7,419 bases of DNA, from contig JAMOPO010000049.1 of assembly GCA_027064425.1 (NCBI GenBank), positions 1-7,419 on the forward strand, read 5' to 3'. Below, piece by piece: positions 1 through 7,419 of this stretch (its first letter is position 1; each line of letters begins with the position of its first letter). This DNA is from Methanobacteriota archaeon (GTDB lineage Archaea; JAADCQ01; Methanopyri; Methanopyrales; Methanopyraceae). The translations under genes were made by a program, and so were the position numbers. The notes under the pieces were generated by a model. The model searched no databases. It saw only the letters and a list, made by a program, of their open reading frames with translations, and had not been told where the DNA came from.

Positions 1-488
1 ACCCGCTCCAGCACCATCTCCAGGAACTCTACGGCGTTGAGCAGCCCCTCCGGCGGGTCTACCACCCTCCACATTCGAATCGGTACCAAGTCCATGCGGT
101 AGGCGGTGCCTTCCCACTCGATCCCGGCGATCGCCGTGGGCACGTAGACGTCCGCGAGCTCGGCCGTGGGCGTCCACTCGGGGTCCACGCAGATCAGCGG
201 GATCTCGGCCATGCGCTCCACCGCCTCCTGCGGGAAGTGAGCGCCCGGGTCGCTGGCGACCACCATCATCGCGTTCGCCTCGCCCCGCGCCAGTACGTCC
301 ACCGCGGAGAACTCTCCAGGGTTGTACCGGGGGTAGCCCCGGCTAAAGTCCACCGCGAATGGGTAGCCCGTGGTCCAGGAGAGTACCTCGTTGAACCCGG
401 TCACGTTGTAGTGCCCGCGCATCATCATTAGGACCCACTTGGTGTGCTCGTTGAGGTCTCGGATGAGGCAGATGGCGTTGTCGATGTT
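1..488 (-). pseudogene. fwdB: Formylmethanofuran dehydrogenase subunit B, C-terminal fragment (5' part missing)
   Basis: On the minus strand an open frame of about 162 codons runs from 488 to the window edge. It reads like the C-terminal part of FwdB/FmdB, the molybdopterin- or tungstopterin-binding catalytic subunit that reduces CO2 to formylmethanofuran in the first step of methanogenesis. Family landmarks are MRGHYNVTGFNE, YPFAVDFSRG, the YNPGE segment, ASDPGAHFPQ, a TAELADVYVPT stretch and EGTAYRMD, all typical of the cofactor-binding C-terminal region. No start codon or N-terminal domain is present. Upstream the frame collides with hdrA at 484-492 in a different reading frame. The missing N-terminal half (roughly 240 residues, estimated from family length) would carry the iron-sulfur site and the active-site Cys or Sec. 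The 3' end lies outside the window. As it stands this piece cannot give a working enzyme. Identity is confident; whether the break is biological or technical is unknown. Confidence 0.85.
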
Positions 489-1009
489 TCGACAAGGATG
501 ACCTCGAAGCCCATGTCCGCAAGGTCGAGCGCGGCCTGGATCCCAGCCACGCCGCCCCCGATAACCAGCGCCCGGTCCGTCACCTCTACCTCGATCTCCT
601 CGAGCGGCTCCAGCTCCCGCGCCTTGGCCACTGCCATCCGGACTAGGTCCTTCGCCTTCTCCGTTGCTCGGGTCGGGTCATCCATGTGCACCCACGAGCA
701 GTGCTCCCGGATGTTCGCCATCTCCAGGCAGTAGGGGTTCAGCCCCGCCTCCTCCACGCATCTCCGGAACGTCGGCTCGTGCAGCCGGGGCGAGCAGGCC
801 GCGACGACCACACGGTTCAGGTCATACTTCTCAATGTCCCGCTGGATCAGCTCCTGACCCGGGTCCGAGCAGACGTACTTGTAATCCCGCGCGACGACCA
901 CGTTCTCCAGCCGGCTCGCGTATTCCGCGACCTCCTTGACGTCCACCACGCCCGCGATGTTCACTCCACAGTGGCACACGTACACGCCGATCCGGGGCTC
1001 CTCCGACAA
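428..1009 (-). pseudogene. hdrA: Heterodisulfide reductase subunit A, N-terminal fragment (truncated)
   Basis: The first 174 residues match HdrA, the FAD and iron-sulfur subunit that bifurcates electrons from H2 (delivered by MvhAGD) to ferredoxin and to the CoM-S-S-CoB heterodisulfide. Visible marks are the CHCGVNIAG motif at residues 12-20, [10 protein letters not shown] near 44-53, [15 protein letters not shown] at 70-84, and the FAD-binding Rossmann loop GGGVAG at 151-156. After GFEVILVE (167-174) the expected continuation (GGRMAQLDKTFPTLD-type segment with the cluster-ligand Cys/Sec) is absent. Instead 19 Ser/Thr/Pro-rich residues follow, which are fwdB DNA read out of frame, ending at TAA (428-430). 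Full HdrA is about 650 residues, so all C-terminal ferredoxin-type cluster domains are lost. The start is TTG, five bases after the mvhA stop, preceded by GGGGGTAGG. It is the last promoter-distal partner of the mvh operon here. Confidence 0.88.
484..492. other. hdrA / fwdB breakpoint
   Basis: On the minus strand the HdrA frame is convincing through Glu174 (codon 490-488). The FwdB frame is convincing from about Asn (codon 488-486), and the two frames differ by one or two bases. The two homologies therefore meet within a few bases, with no spacer, no repeat of transposon type and no target-site duplication. The sequence across the joint is GTCGAAACATCGAC on the minus strand. Its GTCGAAA portion could be codons of either gene, so a short microhomology at the joint is possible but cannot be tested without the parental sequences. 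Confidence 0.8.
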
Positions 1010-1023
1010 GCAGCCTACCCCCG
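1010..1023 (-). promoter_or_regulatory. Shine-Dalgarno supporting the TTG start of hdrA'
   Basis: Read on the minus strand, GGGGGTAGG (1022-1014) overlaps the mvhA stop codon TAG and sits four to five bases before TTG at 1009-1007. This placement supports the unusual TTG start, and the N-terminal sequence it gives aligns with the usual HdrA beginning. It suggests translational coupling to mvhA. Confidence 0.6.
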
Positions 1024-2442
1024 CACGACCCTCACGACCTCACCCGCGCGGCGAACCTCGAGCGTGAGCCGGGGCCGACCGCCCAGGGCGTGCGTAGCGC
1101 AGGAGAGGCAGGGATCGTAGGCCCGAATCACCATTTCCATATAGTTAAGAACTTCCGGAGTCGCGTCCTCGGGACCCTCCAGGTACTCCTCCGCCACCCG
1201 CCGCACGCCCAGATCCATGGCCGGGTTGTTCTGCACCGTCGCCACGATCAGGTTCGCCTCCGTGATACGCCCCTCCTCGTCCGTCCTGAAGTGGTGAATC
1301 AGCGTCCCATGAGGCGCCTCAACGCACCCTACGCCCTCGCCCGTCACGTCGTCCGGGTCCACCTCTTCTCGCACGTCATCGCCCGTGATCTCGTCGTCCT
1401 CGAGCAGCTCGACGCACCGCTCCGCCGACGAGAGTAGCTCGATCGCCCGCGCGTAGTGGTACAGCATCGGGTGATGGCACGGGCTCCCATACTCCTCAAC
1501 CAGCTCTTCGTACCGCTCCTGCGCCCGCGGCGTCGCCATCTCGTCGCACACGTTCAGCCGGGAGAGCGTGTTGACCCGGTAGACACCGTCCTCCTCGCCG
1601 TAATCGCGCAGGTACGGGAACTTGAGGTACGAGTACGGGCGCACGGCCTCCGCGATGTGCTCCAGATACTCCGACGGCTCGAACTCCCGGTCCACCCTCC
1701 CCTCCGGGTCGACGACACGAATCACCCCGTCGTACAGCTCGTGCACCCCGTCCCGGACCATCCCCATGTGGTACGTCTCCACGCTCCCCAGCTCGAGAAG
1801 TCCCTCCTCCAGCCGCCTCGTGAGCTCCCGCGCCGTCTCTACCGTCTCGTCCGCCAGCTCGACCGCGCGCCGCGCCAGCTCCAGCAGCTCCTCCCGCCTC
1901 TCCTCCTCCAGCGGCCGGGAGACGCCACCCGGGACCGCCGTGACCGGGTGGATCGCCTTGCCGCCCACCGCCTCCACGATCGTCTGCCCGATCTTCCGCA
2001 GCTCAATCGCGCGCTTGACCAGGTCCGGCTCCTCCCGGGCCAGCGCCAGCACGTGCCGCTCCTCCGGCTCACGCCCCGGGTCCACCAGGTCCGGCGCGGC
2101 CAGGAAGTAGAAGTGCAGGGCGTGGCTGTGCACCGTCGCGGCATGGTGCATCAGCTCCCGCAGCTTCCGGCCCGGCTCGGGCGGCTCCACACCGAACACC
2201 TCGTCCGCCGCCTTCGCGCTCGCCAGGTGGTGAGCGACCTGGCAGATCCCACAGATCCGTGGCGTCAGGATCGGCGCGTCCTCGATGAACCGCCCCTCCA
2301 GGAACTTTTCGAACCCGCGCATCTCCGTCACGTGGAACCGGGCGTCCCTCAGGTTCCCCTCCTCGTCGAACTCGACCACAGTTTTACCGTGACCCTCCAC
2401 CCGCGTCACGGGCTCCACCTCGACCGTCACCGCCTCGGACAA
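1015..2442 (-). CDS. mvhA: F420-non-reducing [NiFe] hydrogenase large (catalytic) subunit MvhA
   Basis: A 475-residue large subunit of a group 3c [NiFe] hydrogenase. It splits H2 at the Ni-Fe centre in the cytoplasmic MvhAGD-HdrABC complex. Both nickel-ligand pairs are present: [11 protein letters not shown] (Cys64, Cys67) and DPCLSCATH (Cys445, Cys448, His451). The N-terminal EPVTRVEGH motif of the family is at residues 10-18. After His451 come 24 residues, the place where maturation proteases cut in this family; whether cleavage occurs here is not shown. The Vhu-type arrangement, in which the C-terminal motif is a separate selenocysteine peptide (VhuU), is not used: the chain is continuous and both residues are Cys. 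The TTG start at 2442 is favoured by GGGGGTG five bases upstream. mvhG ends 12 bases before it and hdrA' begins 5 bases after it. The length and motifs indicate an intact gene. Confidence 0.95.
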
Positions 2443-2454: not shown

Positions 2455-3351
2455 TCATCGATCCACCCGGAACGGAATCAGCGAGGCCGGCAGCGTGAAC
2501 CGGCAGAACCAGCTCACCGGGTCGCGGAGCCGCTCGACCAGCTCGCCCGGGTCGACCTCGTCCTCGTCTGCCCGGAACGCGGAGGCGATCGTCGAGAGCA
2601 TCCGCGCGCCCTGATCGACCGACCGATCCGTCGGACCCGCGCACCCCGTGCACGGCACGCCCGCCTTCGGGCACCGGGCCCCGCAGCCCGCCCGCGTCGC
2701 CGGCCCCATGCACAGGTAACCCTGCTCCAGCAGGCACCGGTCCGGGTCCGGCTCGCCCTCCACCGGCCGCCGGATCTCGGGGATAATGAGCCCCTCCTCC
2801 CGCTTCTCGCGCGGGCACTCCTCGCAGAGGTTGTAACCGGGCAGCTCCGGCTCCTCACCCTCAAGAATCGCCTCCAACACCTCCGCGATCCGGTCGGGCT
2901 CCGGCGGGCAGCCCGGCAGCTCGTAGTCCACCTCGATCACGTCCGAGAACGGGTGAACCCGCCAGGTCAGCTCGGGGACGCCCTCGGACGGGATCGTTCC
3001 CTCCTCGTTCTCCGTGCTGGCCGTCTCTACGTACACGGCCTCGAGTAGCTCCTCGTTGGAGAACAGGTTGGCCAGCCCGGGCACGCCACCGTAGCAGGCG
3101 CACGTGCCCAGCGCGACCACGACCTCCGCCTTCTCCCGCAGCTCCTCCGCCACCTCCACGTTCTCCTCGTTCCGGATCCCACCCTCGATCAGCGCGACGT
3201 CCACGTCGTCCGGGATCTCCTTCACGTCCATCAGCACGGGGCAGTGAACCAGCTCCACGTCCTCGAAGAGCTTCAGCAGCCGCTCGTGCAGGTCCAGCAT
3301 CGAGACATGGCAGCCCGAGCAGCAGCACAGCCAGGTCGTGGCTATCCTCAT
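2455..3351 (-). CDS. mvhG: F420-non-reducing hydrogenase small (electron-transfer) subunit MvhG
   Basis: A 298-residue small subunit of the group 3c [NiFe] hydrogenase. It carries electrons from the MvhA active site to MvhD through three [4Fe-4S] clusters. The proximal-cluster motif CSGCH is at residues 11-15, followed by LGTCACYGG (Cys84, Cys86) and the PGCPP motif (Cys148). Further cysteines that fit the medial and distal clusters are at 176, 179, 206, 214, 223, 227, 234 and 237. There is no twin-arginine signal peptide, as expected for the cytoplasmic Mvh type. The ATG start follows GGGG (3362-3359) by seven bases. The gene begins 12 bases after mvhD ends and stops 12 bases before mvhA, so the three are almost certainly co-transcribed. 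The protein is strikingly acidic (long Glu/Asp runs around 61-76 and 261-271), a composition known in M. kandleri. It appears intact. Confidence 0.95.
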   Translation of the reverse strand: MRIATTWLCCCSGCHVSMLDLHERLLKLFEDVELVHCPVLMDVKEIPDDVDVALIEGGIRNEENVEVAEELREKAEVVVALGTCACYGGVPGLANLFSNEELLEAVYVETASTENEEGTIPSEGVPELTWRVHPFSDVIEVDYELPGCPPEPDRIAEVLEAILEGEEPELPGYNLCEECPREKREEGLIIPEIRRPVEGEPDPDRCLLEQGYLCMGPATRAGCGARCPKAGVPCTGCAGPTDRSVDQGARMLSTIASAFRADEDEVDPGELVERLRDPVSWFCRFTLPASLIPFRVDR

Positions 3352-3363
3352 TTCAATTCCCCA

Positions 3364-3792
3364 TCAAAGCTTCTTCAAGCGCTCATCCAGCTTAAGCGGG
3401 CCCAGCTCCAAGATCGTCTCATGGAACTCAGTCATCACTTGGGCGAACTTCTCTCCCTCCGAAGCCGAGATCCACTCGTACCGGAACCGCTCCGGCTCAA
3501 TGCCAATCTGCTCCAAATAGCGCTTCAGCGCCTCGGCCCTCCTCCACCACTTGTAGTTGCCGGACTGGTAGTGACAGTCGCCCAGGTGACATCCTCCTAC
3601 GAACACCCCGTCCGCTCCCTCTCGGAAGGCCTTCAGCACCAGCGACGGCTCGACCCGGCCCGAGCACATGACGCGGACGATGCGCGCGCTGGGCGGGTGC
3701 TGCATCCTCCCCACGCCGGCGGTGTCCGCGCCGCCGTACGAGCACCAGTTGCAGCAGAAGGCGATGATCTTGGGCTCCCAGTCCTTGGCCAT
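3364..3792 (-). CDS. mvhD: Methyl-viologen-reducing hydrogenase delta subunit MvhD
   Basis: A 142-residue protein of the MvhD/VhuD family, the iron-sulfur adaptor that docks the hydrogenase MvhAG to HdrA and relays electrons to its FAD. The conserved cysteine pattern is clear: FCCNWCSYGGAD (Cys13, 14, 17), VMCSGRV (Cys43) and GCHLGDCHY (Cys68, Cys73), followed by SASEGEKFA near 109-117. The family has a redox-active cysteine in the GDCHY motif that is selenocysteine in some methanogens; here it is an ordinary TGT Cys codon. The ATG at 3792-3790 is fixed by an in-frame TGA directly upstream; the preceding GGCGGTGA resembles a Shine-Dalgarno but lies unusually close. It is the first gene of the minus-strand unit, 12 bases ahead of mvhG. 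Length is normal and the gene looks functional. Confidence 0.95.
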   Translation of the reverse strand: MAKDWEPKIIAFCCNWCSYGGADTAGVGRMQHPPSARIVRVMCSGRVEPSLVLKAFREGADGVFVGGCHLGDCHYQSGNYKWWRRAEALKRYLEQIGIEPERFRYEWISASEGEKFAQVMTEFHETILELGPLKLDERLKKL

Positions 3793-4117: not shown

Positions 4118-4131
4118 CATTAATATCATAT
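4118..4131 (+). promoter_or_regulatory. Putative TATA box of the secreted-protein gene
   Basis: The A/T-rich stretch CATTAATATCATAT lies about 50-60 bases before the GTG start at 4181. Transcription would be expected to begin near 4145-4155, giving a leader of about 30 bases that includes the Shine-Dalgarno hairpin. This placement also means the in-frame ATG at 4130 falls within the promoter rather than in the message, which argues against it as the start. Confidence 0.5.
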
Positions 4132-4155
4132 GTTGGCAACGGTTGGAACCGGCCG

Positions 4156-4180
4156 GCCCGCCTCCGGGGGGGAGGGGGGC
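4156..4180 (+). promoter_or_regulatory. Shine-Dalgarno GGAGG inside a potential hairpin
   Basis: GGAGG (4171-4175) lies five bases before the GTG at 4181, an ideal Shine-Dalgarno position that decides the start. The same bases can pair with CCTCC (4161-4165) across a five-G loop. The stem extends to GCCC/GGGC (4156-4159 with 4177-4180) after one G-G mismatch, so the arm covers the whole site up to the start codon. In a hyperthermophile the hairpin may be melted at growth temperature, so an effect on translation is only a hypothesis. Confidence 0.55.
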
Positions 4181-7123
4181 GTGAAAAAAGCCCTGATGGC
4201 GATGATCGCCCTCCTCCTCGCTGCAGCGCCCGCTACTGCAGTGCGCGTCCAGCTACCGGGTGGCCCTAACTGGTCATTCAATGAGGACATTGTAGCCGGA
4301 CCGGACCCGCATCTCAGGGCTCACGAGGTGACCGTACAGGGAGGCATCGACCACGCTGGTTATTATCCACTAGACAAGTACTGGGACTGGAAGACGGCTT
4401 TTAAGGCGAGAACCAGCTTTGGAGAGGTGACTTTTCACCTGTCTCCCGCCGACAGCTACAACGCGTTTCTGGCAGACAACCGAGTCATACTGTTTCCAGC
4501 ATTCCACGGTAAGTACCCGACGACAGTGTACATCGCCTACATCGCTGTGAACTGGTGGGAAAGCGATGGTCATCGCTGGTTACACCCGTACCGGTGGACG
4601 TACGTGGACGTAATGACAGTAGAGTACTATGGTATGATAAGGGTTAAGCTGGCGGATTGGTGCTTAAGGGGTGTAATGGGATCGTGCGATCCTGGCATTG
4701 GTCAAGGCGAAGGATACGCTGTAGACATCCTAGACGATGCTTTCCTCGATGTCATACCGGTTAAGTGGGAAAATGTGCCAGCTGTTCCGGGGTTCCCAGA
4801 ACGCGCAGGCCCGAACGGTGTCGAACGAATCGGCTGGAACATTTGGGTTCTAGCGATTTCAACATGCGATGGCATCGAGGGCATCAGAATTCGCGTGCCA
4901 CCGAAGAACCCTTCAGGCAACCCACCTCACATCTGGGTAGTGGCAGTAGTTGCAGAGTACCCGGATGGTAGCAGGTACTCAGTAGTGCCCGAAGACTGGT
5001 GCGTTCCGGCGAAGTGCAGCGCCCAGGAAGCCGCCCTAGATGGCACGTTCCGGTTACCAGATGTCCGAGCGGTGATAGCACCTTGGGTATCTCCGCGCTT
5101 CGGACACGGTGTGAGCTCGCTGATGCCACCACTGGACGTGTTACCGTACGAGTCGTGCGTTGACGACCAGGGCAGGCTGTGGCTGAGCATAGGGGGAGAG
5201 CTGGTACCATTCCGATTTAACCCGCGTCACGCCGAACTCCTGAACGTGCTCCAGTTTCCAGACGCAGTGCTGAGGCTTCCCAGACCCGCTAGGGCAGTCT
5301 ACCTGCTATACCTAGCCACATGCTGGCGGGACGATCACGGCAATCCAGTTGACCAGTACCCAATTTTGGTTCAGTATGCAGACGGAACCGCGAGTGGGCT
5401 GACTGTGCGCATTGTGGACTGGTGCGCGCTTGAGCCTAAATCATACAATGAGAGGCAGCGCAGCACCGCGGCCCGCGCTTGTCCGGATCCGCAGCCCTAC
5501 TGGGTTACGGGGGAACCGCTAGCCTTCCAGACGCCGGCACTAGTGTTCCGAGACCGCGGAGATGGCAACCACCCAATCGCATGGCTACTGAAAATCCAGG
5601 CTCCACCAGGTAAGCGCATTGTCAGCATAGACTTCCCAGAGCGGTGGTGGAGGAAGGGTGGTTACCTGTGGCTCCTCGCCGTCACCGAGCTAGCGGACGA
5701 CGGCAAATATTACTCAGTCTTCCCTGGAGAGGGGGTTCTGTGGGACCCCACCGACTCCGGCAGTTGTCCGTACACACCTCACTCCAAGCTAAGCTGGCTA
5801 GCGGAGATCGGAGTGCCATTCGTGCTTAGATACTTCGTGGACAAGACTCCAGCACCGACGCCGGACATGTCATGGATGGCGTACGTCCGGGGAGTCGTCC
5901 CACCTAGCGACGGCCTCGCCACTAATCTTAACGTCATCCTCTATAGGACCGCGTGGTGTGAGCAGGGCCACCCGAAAGCCACGAAGGGACTAAAGCTCGC
6001 GCTATCAATGCTAGCGGCGCTGTTCGATGCCGCCATCGAGCGCCAGGCTGAGGACCTCGGCTTGAGAGCCTATCGGGCTTACCCAGCGGTGGTGCAAGGG
6101 GTCGTATGGTCGAGCGACTCGTCCCAACTCCTAATCTACCAGCCCACGCTCGGAGTAAGCTTCTACGGCCCGCCAGTGCTGGTTAGAGCCCTGAATTCAT
6201 ACGCTTCCGCCTTACTAGCTGCCGCCGAAGACTTAGTGCTGCACGTCGCGCTAGGGTGCCCGCAGTTAGCACCGTGGCAGTACGACCCGCAGCTAAGGTC
6301 GCGTTTCGTGCAGGACGTCCAGCAAGTACTAGGAATCAGCAGGGACGCTGCGGCAGACTTCACGCGCGCGCTCGACCGCGGGGAAGCGACTCTTGGGGAT
6401 CTTCTGCGCTGGACAGGGGCTGCGCAAGTAGGAGCAAGTGCGGTGACTGCGCTTTCGACTCTGCTCTCGCGCTCTTGCGGACTATCCACAGACGCGGATG
6501 TGTACACCTACTGGTCGGCGGCCACCGGCGAGATAATGTTCCTAGTAGTCGCGCCGAGGGCACTGCCGACGAAAGGAGGGGTCACGACTGGCTGCTTCTG
6601 TGGCACCTTGACGGACAACCTCAACAAGGTAGGTTCGTGGCTGTCGAGCGACTTCTGGTCGATATTTAGGCGTTACTTCAACAATCCACTGATCAACGGA
6701 GCAATGGCGACACTACTCTCGTGGGGTGTGGAATGGGCGATAATCTTGTCAGCAGGGCTTATGGCAGGCCTCTCCCCCGCGGCGGCGGAACTGCTGGCGT
6801 CTGGTGCACCGTACCTGGCGGCCCTTGGTTCGTCCGCGATCATGGCACTGCTAGACTGGTGGTTAAACAACAGGACATGGGATCAAGTCCTAAAGGAGAT
6901 AGCCGTGGGCGCTGCGGCTGGTGCGGGAGTGTACAAGTTCGTAGTCAAGTACATCTCGAAGATACGTGAGTACGCGGGAAGAACCGTTGCCTCCAAGATT
7001 ATAGCGAGGTACTACGACTTCGCGTTCAACTGGAGCACCAACTCGATCCTAGCGGCCACGTCGAACCTGTGGTTGACAGGGGGGCTAAACGCCCATTGTC
7101 CTTTCTCCATCAGGCCTACCTAA
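4181..7123 (+). CDS. Large secreted orphan protein with four beta-rich modules and a hydrophobic C-terminal domain
   Basis: A 980-residue protein whose exact family I do not recognise; it resembles the Methanopyrus-specific secreted proteins with repeats. From the GTG start a textbook signal peptide follows: KK at 2-3, a hydrophobic core at 4-16, and a likely signal peptidase cut after the Ala-Thr-Ala at 18-20. An upstream in-frame ATG at 4130 would spoil the signal and lies in the promoter. Residues about 50-530 hold four diverged modules. The first three end in Asp-Trp-Cys (159-161, 272-274, 413-415). Modules two and three carry YPDG (260-263) and YADG (399-402) before it; module four has DDGKYYSV (506-513) but no DWC. 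A second Cys follows each DWC, suggesting disulfides. Residues from about 601 are helical, with hydrophobic segments near 840-864, 877-895 and 907-925. DNA is lower in GC than the mvh genes. It probably sits at the cell surface; its function is unknown. Confidence 0.85.
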   Translation: MKKALMAMIALLLAAAPATAVRVQLPGGPNWSFNEDIVAGPDPHLRAHEVTVQGGIDHAGYYPLDKYWDWKTAFKARTSFGEVTFHLSPADSYNAFLADNRVILFPAFHGKYPTTVYIAYIAVNWWESDGHRWLHPYRWTYVDVMTVEYYGMIRVKLADWCLRGVMGSCDPGIGQGEGYAVDILDDAFLDVIPVKWENVPAVPGFPERAGPNGVERIGWNIWVLAISTCDGIEGIRIRVPPKNPSGNPPHIWVVAVVAEYPDGSRYSVVPEDWCVPAKCSAQEAALDGTFRLPDVRAVIAPWVSPRFGHGVSSLMPPLDVLPYESCVDDQGRLWLSIGGELVPFRFNPRHAELLNVLQFPDAVLRLPRPARAVYLLYLATCWRDDHGNPVDQYPILVQYADGTASGLTVRIVDWCALEPKSYNERQRSTAARACPDPQPYWVTGEPLAFQTPALVFRDRGDGNHPIAWLLKIQAPPGKRIVSIDFPERWWRKGGYLWLLAVTELADDGKYYSVFPGEGVLWDPTDSGSCPYTPHSKLSWLAEIGVPFVLRYFVDKTPAPTPDMSWMAYVRGVVPPSDGLATNLNVILYRTAWCEQGHPKATKGLKLALSMLAALFDAAIERQAEDLGLRAYRAYPAVVQGVVWSSDSSQLLIYQPTLGVSFYGPPVLVRALNSYASALLAAAEDLVLHVALGCPQLAPWQYDPQLRSRFVQDVQQVLGISRDAAADFTRALDRGEATLGDLLRWTGAAQVGASAVTALSTLLSRSCGLSTDADVYTYWSAATGEIMFLVVAPRALPTKGGVTTGCFCGTLTDNLNKVGSWLSSDFWSIFRRYFNNPLINGAMATLLSWGVEWAIILSAGLMAGLSPAAAELLASGAPYLAALGSSAIMALLDWWLNNRTWDQVLKEIAVGAAAGAGVYKFVVKYISKIREYAGRTVASKIIARYYDFAFNWSTNSILAATSNLWLTGGLNAHCPFSIRPT

Positions 7124-7419
7124 TGCCCCTCGCCCTCACTTACATTTTCTTTGCATCACTAGTGTTGTGGCTCGTATCGATAGTGACAGTTGTTGTTAAG
7201 TGGAGGAAGGCACGGAAGATCGTGAACGAAGCCATGGAATCGGGCACGGTAGGTCCCTACGGTGGATTGGATAAGGAGACTGGGGTTAGGCTTTCCTCTA
7301 CGAAGGTGGTGTGGTGTTACGGTATTTTCGACTTCCCGCCGATAAGTTTACCCATCGTAGCACTACTCTCTGCCGTCGCCCTGGGAAAGGGTTGGGAGAG
7401 CCCTACAGTGTGTCCTGGG
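7123..7419 (+). CDS. Membrane protein of unknown function (3' end beyond the window)
   Basis: The frame starts at the ATG of TAATG, sharing one base with the stop of the secreted-protein gene, and stays open for 99 codons to the window edge. No clear Shine-Dalgarno precedes it, so translation probably depends on re-initiation after the upstream gene. Residues about 5-25 form one hydrophobic helix (YIFFASLVLWLVSIVTVVV) followed by a basic stretch KWRKARK, the positive-inside signal of a membrane anchor. A second hydrophobic stretch lies near 75-92 (PPISLPIVALLSAVALG). Between them is a polar segment of about 45 residues. No family is recognised. The tight coupling suggests that it works with, anchors or exports the secreted protein. 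Although no homology could be checked, the absence of stops, good topology and coupling make a real gene likely. Confidence 0.65.
   Translation, partial: MPLALTYIFFASLVLWLVSIVTVVVKWRKARKIVNEAMESGTVGPYGGLDKETGVRLSSTKVVWCYGIFDFPPISLPIVALLSAVALGKGWESPTVCPG

Follow-up and report, generated by a model that had tools for sequence, protein, structure and literature searches.

The window is the entire 7,419-bp contig C49 of a Methanopyrus genome assembly (G000; 57 contigs, 1.54 Mb, 99.2% complete, contamination 0.78%). The host is a methane-making archaeon of hot vents. The contig was compared with the other contigs of G000 and with the Methanopyrus genomes G001 to G004, of which G001 (1.42 Mb) and G002 (1.69 Mb) are complete. 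On the minus strand, from 3792 to 3, it carries a cluster in the order mvhD-mvhG-mvhA, hdrA and fwdB, which is collinear with clusters in G001 and G002 (Table 1). The last two genes are fragments that meet at a single joint. The 997-aa protein encoded on the other strand has no match in Pfam or NCBIfam. Among the genomes compared it is found in Methanopyrus only, with relatives in G002 and G004 and a truncated remnant in G003. The gene of this secreted-like protein lies in an array with the membrane-protein gene and others (G002, 310-325 kb).

Table 1. Genes and breakpoints in the 7,419-bp window.
Feature	Position	Strand	Basis
fwdB (fwdB2, Cys isoform cluster), C-terminal fragment, residues ~261-420/421	3..488	-	TIGR03129, E 2e-59
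Probable fwdB/hdrA deletion joint	488..489		Six fwdB and five hdrA genes aligned across the joint
hdrA (hdrA1, Cys isoform cluster), codons 1-173	489..1009	-	NF040770, E 5e-86
mvhA/vhcA, F420-non-reducing [NiFe]-hydrogenase large subunit, intact, Cys form	1015..2442	-	PF00374, NF041785
mvhG/vhcG, intact	2455..3351	-	PF01058, NF045875
mvhD/vhcD, intact; Cys at both UGA sites of paralogue	3364..3792	-	PF02662
997-aa protein, signal-like N-terminus	4130..7123	+	Methanopyrus relatives only
Left breakpoint of G003 6,825-bp deletion	118..119		Comparison with G003:C31
Right breakpoint of G003:C31 6,825-bp deletion, joined to window 118	6943..6944		Blunt join
Membrane protein gene, 5' part, cut by contig end	7069..7419	+	Complete 280-aa ORF in G003:C31

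The switch from fwdB to hdrA falls between bases 488 and 489, within the clean breakpoint that the first-pass annotation had placed at 484-492. The window has T at both bases: at 488 it shares this with fwdB, whereas hdrA has C, and at 489 with hdrA, whereas every intact fwdB gene in the comparison has C. Because each of these bases matches one gene only, the microhomology at the joint is 0 bp; only a T at 489 in the lost fwdB would raise it to 3 bp (TCG). The GTCGAAA-like shared sequence proposed earlier is absent from the joint. Viral contigs were searched for the exact joint and none carried it. HdrA homology, described earlier as excellent to residue 174, covers codons 1-173 (NF040770 positions 1-173) and ends at 489, with 92% amino acid identity to hdrA1 of G002. 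FwdB homology starts directly at 488, in another frame of the same strand, as had been described. The ORF at 3..428 (minus strand) matches TIGR03129 positions 281-420 of 421, and the fwdB frame runs on for 20 further in-frame codons to 488. The hdrA ORF (428..1009, minus strand) encodes 193 aa and, beyond hdrA, continues out of frame into fwdB as far as 428.

Profile matches and gene alignments confirm that both genes are cut, and they revise the extent of each loss. HdrA does lose its C-terminal part, but about 73% of the protein rather than two thirds: about 173 of about 650 residues remain. Measured on model NF040770, positions 1-173 of 777 are present, and complete flavin and C-terminal ferredoxin domains are not retained. 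FwdB does lose its N-terminal part, but about 260 of 421 residues (62%) rather than half. Its remnant is the C-terminal 38%, and the model residues before about 261 are missing, including the N-terminal [4Fe-4S] motif and the active-site Cys/Sec. Neither remnant can make a working enzyme. At least about 2.2 kb of coding sequence is missing at the joint, whatever the ancestral arrangement.

The intact arrangement is seen in the two complete genomes, where the two points that meet in the joint lie 5,655 bp (G002) or 5,644 bp (G001) apart, in the same order and on the same strand. The joint is therefore best read as a deletion, and the internal deletion first suggested is supported. Its size, given before as about 2 kb, would rather be that of the G002 or G001 distance if the ancestor was arranged likewise. 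Nor are hdrA and fwdB adjacent, as had been assumed. In G001 and G002 they are separated by about 3.4 kb and five genes, which in G002 encode a BcrAD-type activase, two YedE half-transporters, a Se/S-carrier-like protein (PF11823) and a kinase-like protein. The half-transporters match the NCBIfam model for a putative selenium transporter below its curated cut-off and Pfam Sulf_transp above its own. Neither G000 nor G003 contains this 3.4-kb interval of G002. In G004, other genes follow hdrA, which is not next to fwdB, so the distance before the deletion in the window's lineage can only be inferred.

What kind of enzymes does the cluster encode? At the selenocysteine (Sec) site, MvhA of the window has Cys (DPCLSCATH), whereas its paralogue VhuU on G000:C27 has UGA (DI*LSCAAH; the asterisk stands for the codon). 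MvhD has Cys at both of its Sec sites (CCNWC, GGCHLG), and VhuD on C26 has UGA at both (CCYE*GYG, IAG*KKGE). In-frame UGA is also found in HdrA2 on C27 (DDCAM*ILAPKM) and in FwdB1 on C15 (TASV*HGPS). The corresponding positions of the window's own HdrA and FwdB both fall within the missing part; in the G002 orthologues they are occupied by Cys (HdrA, DCSICILAPKM; FwdB, TASVCHGPS). Judged from these residues, the window cluster is the predicted Cys (selenium-independent) Mvh/Vhc-HdrA-FwdB isoenzyme set. The collinear fwdB of G001 has UGA at the Sec site, and the isoform at this place is therefore not fixed in the genus. Sec isoforms of all four proteins (HdrA, FwdB, VhuU and VhuD) are encoded on G000 contigs other than C49. 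The other copies of hdrA and fwdB that the first-pass annotation called for do exist, at full length, on C27 and C15, respectively. Its statement that two essential genes are cut holds for the cutting and not for "essential", since one of two sets is cut and the Sec isoforms are kept elsewhere. The joint is an ordinary kind of lesion in a redundant isoenzyme cluster. In each of the Sec genes hdrA2 and fwdB1 of G000, a further in-frame TGA stands in place of a conserved Cys, at VCH*GVN in hdrA2 (L035, ~11095) and at CPF*GTLCDD in fwdB1 (L034, 7418). Other Methanopyrus copies compared have Cys at these positions, which are possible additional selenocysteine positions.

Paired isoenzyme sets have been described in other methanogens. 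Methanococcus maripaludis has two sets, vhcDGAB-hdrA-fwdB (Cys) and hdrAU-vhuDGAUB-fwuB (Sec) (PMC11097638). The window resembles the former in that Cys isoforms of F420-non-reducing hydrogenase and, as predicted, of HdrA and FwdB are encoded together, with the Sec set elsewhere. It differs in that hdrA and fwdB are truncated and fused and no vhcB was seen, and in the intact Methanopyrus relatives other genes set these two 3.4 kb apart. In Methanopyrus kandleri, regulation of Sec and Cys isoforms by selenium is reported (PMC11097638; Vorholt 1997, cited in PMC2933860), as are both selenium-dependent and selenium-independent formylmethanofuran dehydrogenases (Vorholt 1997, cited in PMC2933860). 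Its pair of fwdB genes, of which one carries an in-frame UGA and the other Cys, recurs in G002, whereas G000 and G003 keep only the UGA fwdB intact, the Cys form being reduced to fragments. The published KOL6/SNP6 comparison mentions neither selenium nor heterodisulfide reductase nor pseudogenes.

The cluster is damaged in different ways across the genus. In G003:C31, window positions 1-118 (95.8% identity) are joined blunt to 6944-7419 (98.7%) beside a FIST-domain gene, a deletion of 6,825 bp relative to the window that takes the rest of fwdB together with hdrA, mvhADG and the greater part of the 997-aa gene. On the 193-kb contig C57 of G000, a frameshifted 172-bp scrap of fwdB lies beside the same FIST-domain gene. 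In G001, three genes of the cluster are frameshifted: hdrA1 lacks 8 bp, and one base is inserted in each of mvhG and mvhD (L037, 16500, 18755 and 19458), while the neighbouring genes are intact and read through. The single-base insertions could be sequencing errors; the 8-bp deletion hardly could. Redundant prokaryotic gene clusters commonly decay by deletion. The independent deletions and frameshifts that sister lineages show at this one dispensable locus resemble such ordinary decay, except that the redundant set here consists of central energy-metabolism enzymes.

The age of the lesion in the window was approached through selection. Window-specific changes in hdrA are 23.5 synonymous to 3.5 non-synonymous, and no relaxed selection was seen in the window's hdrA or in its intact mvhADG, which argues that the fwdB-hdrA deletion is recent. 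In the fwdB remnant, three changes could be polarised by comparison with C31 and with intact fwdB genes, and all of them are non-synonymous. Six otherwise invariant residues are altered there, against twelve such changes in the intact C44 copy of G004. These counts hint faintly that the remnant decayed after truncation. As a separate observation, mvhA and mvhG of G004 (mvhADG at L274 13154-15926) have far more lineage-specific non-synonymous changes than those of the window (for mvhA, 72 non-synonymous vs 61 synonymous in G004, and 8.5 vs 36.5 in the window), which suggests relaxed or altered selection.

To which strain does the contig belong? The ends of C49 are 96-99% identical to G003:C31, vs about 86-91% between G000 and G003 elsewhere where compared. 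Its fwdB is a mosaic, with exact runs at 90-226 (137 bp) and 370-488 (119 bp) shared with the fwdB paralogue on G003:C7; the longest exact run shared with G000's own fwdB on C15 is 34 bp. We take this mosaic as the probable outcome of gene conversion among the fwdB paralogues of a G003-like lineage. With G003-like ends and exact tracts of G003:C7, C49 is therefore probably a stray contig of a G003-like strain that was binned with G000, an origin that the earlier annotation had not considered. No other sampled G000 contig reached 95% identity to 712 kb of G003 (contigs of at least 3 kb, the large ones sampled partly), and contamination would therefore be limited to this one contig. Wholesale contamination of G000 by G003-like contigs was rejected on the same sample, in which only C49 is G003-like. 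That C49 is the sole G003-like sequence among the contigs sampled, in an assembly with completeness of 99% and contamination of 0.78%, would also suit a different owner: C49 may truly be G000's, which would have gained a G003-like allele laterally and retained it alongside the remnant on C57. This is improbable given the gap in identity between the contig ends and other G000 regions. The orthologous locus, moreover, is already present in G000, on C57, so that a stray contig of a co-occurring strain is simpler. Lateral transfer would concern the owner of the contig, not the joint, and is compatible with a natural deletion.

The joint itself is probably the scar of a natural internal deletion in the selenium-independent cluster mvhDGA-hdrA-...-fwdB. 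In favour of this are the collinearity with G001 and G002, the long, clean homologies on both sides of the joint, and the other lesions that the cluster has suffered at three further loci (G003:C31, G000:C57 and G001). It is seen in one short contig of one assembly, as assembled sequence only, and the contig is probably misbinned. An assembly or library chimera, in which the strain's hdrA and fwdB are intact and two fragments were wrongly joined, could also account for it. Assemblies in this genus break at the long stretches in which fwdB paralogues are identical. The identical tract at 370-488 stops exactly at the joint, and its length, 119 bp, is a k-mer size in some assemblers, which makes faulty assembly conceivable on the fwdB side. 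However, an overlap assembler requires shared sequence, of which the joint has 0-3 bp, and no repeat ends on the hdrA side, where hdrA2 is diverged. The removed interval is moreover absent from G000 and G003, and G003 has a different cut at the same locus, which leaves a chimera unlikely. Far less credible still is a functional fusion, in which the 193-aa ORF (the HdrA N-terminus plus 19 out-of-frame residues) would be a new protein. The ORF is open and its hdrA part was under purifying selection until recently, but the flavin domain of HdrA is cut after about 30 residues, the tail is out of frame and the fusion was found in no relative compared.

Under a natural deletion, breakage would have been followed by end joining with 0-3 bp of microhomology. 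The event would have removed the last ~480 codons of hdrA, the intervening genes and the first ~260 codons of fwdB, about 5.65 kb in all if the ancestor was arranged as in G001 and G002. The need for the Cys set may have been relaxed, and the loss would have been tolerable because selenocysteine isoforms are encoded elsewhere in G000. The same locus is cut further in G003, nearly all lost in G000:C57 and frameshifted in G001.

Cys backups of selenoenzymes would thus appear to be lost stepwise at this locus in several Methanopyrus lineages. The locus offers a natural test of a broader question: can a hydrogenotrophic methanogen become tied to selenium? Tentatively, and with rather less confidence than for the deletion, the G000/G003 sublineage may be shedding selenium-independent methanogenesis enzymes together with the neighbouring putative selenium-uptake genes and becoming dependent on Sec enzymes, two G000 selenoproteins having an extra UGA. 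Where "essential" methanogenesis genes appear truncated or absent in such assemblies, isoenzyme redundancy and strain mixing should both be weighed.

Two further observations concern the assemblies. Contigs of G004 (L042, L043 and L274-L277) end within fwdB and within hdrA, in both copies of each gene and at corresponding points, a pattern to be expected if assembly collapsed identical converted tracts. Many small contigs of G000 (among C1-C25 and C34-C56; 3-12 kb), most of them with a GC content of 62-66% vs 67-70% in the large contigs sampled, match the G003 sequence compared barely or not at all, and several encode large secreted-like proteins.
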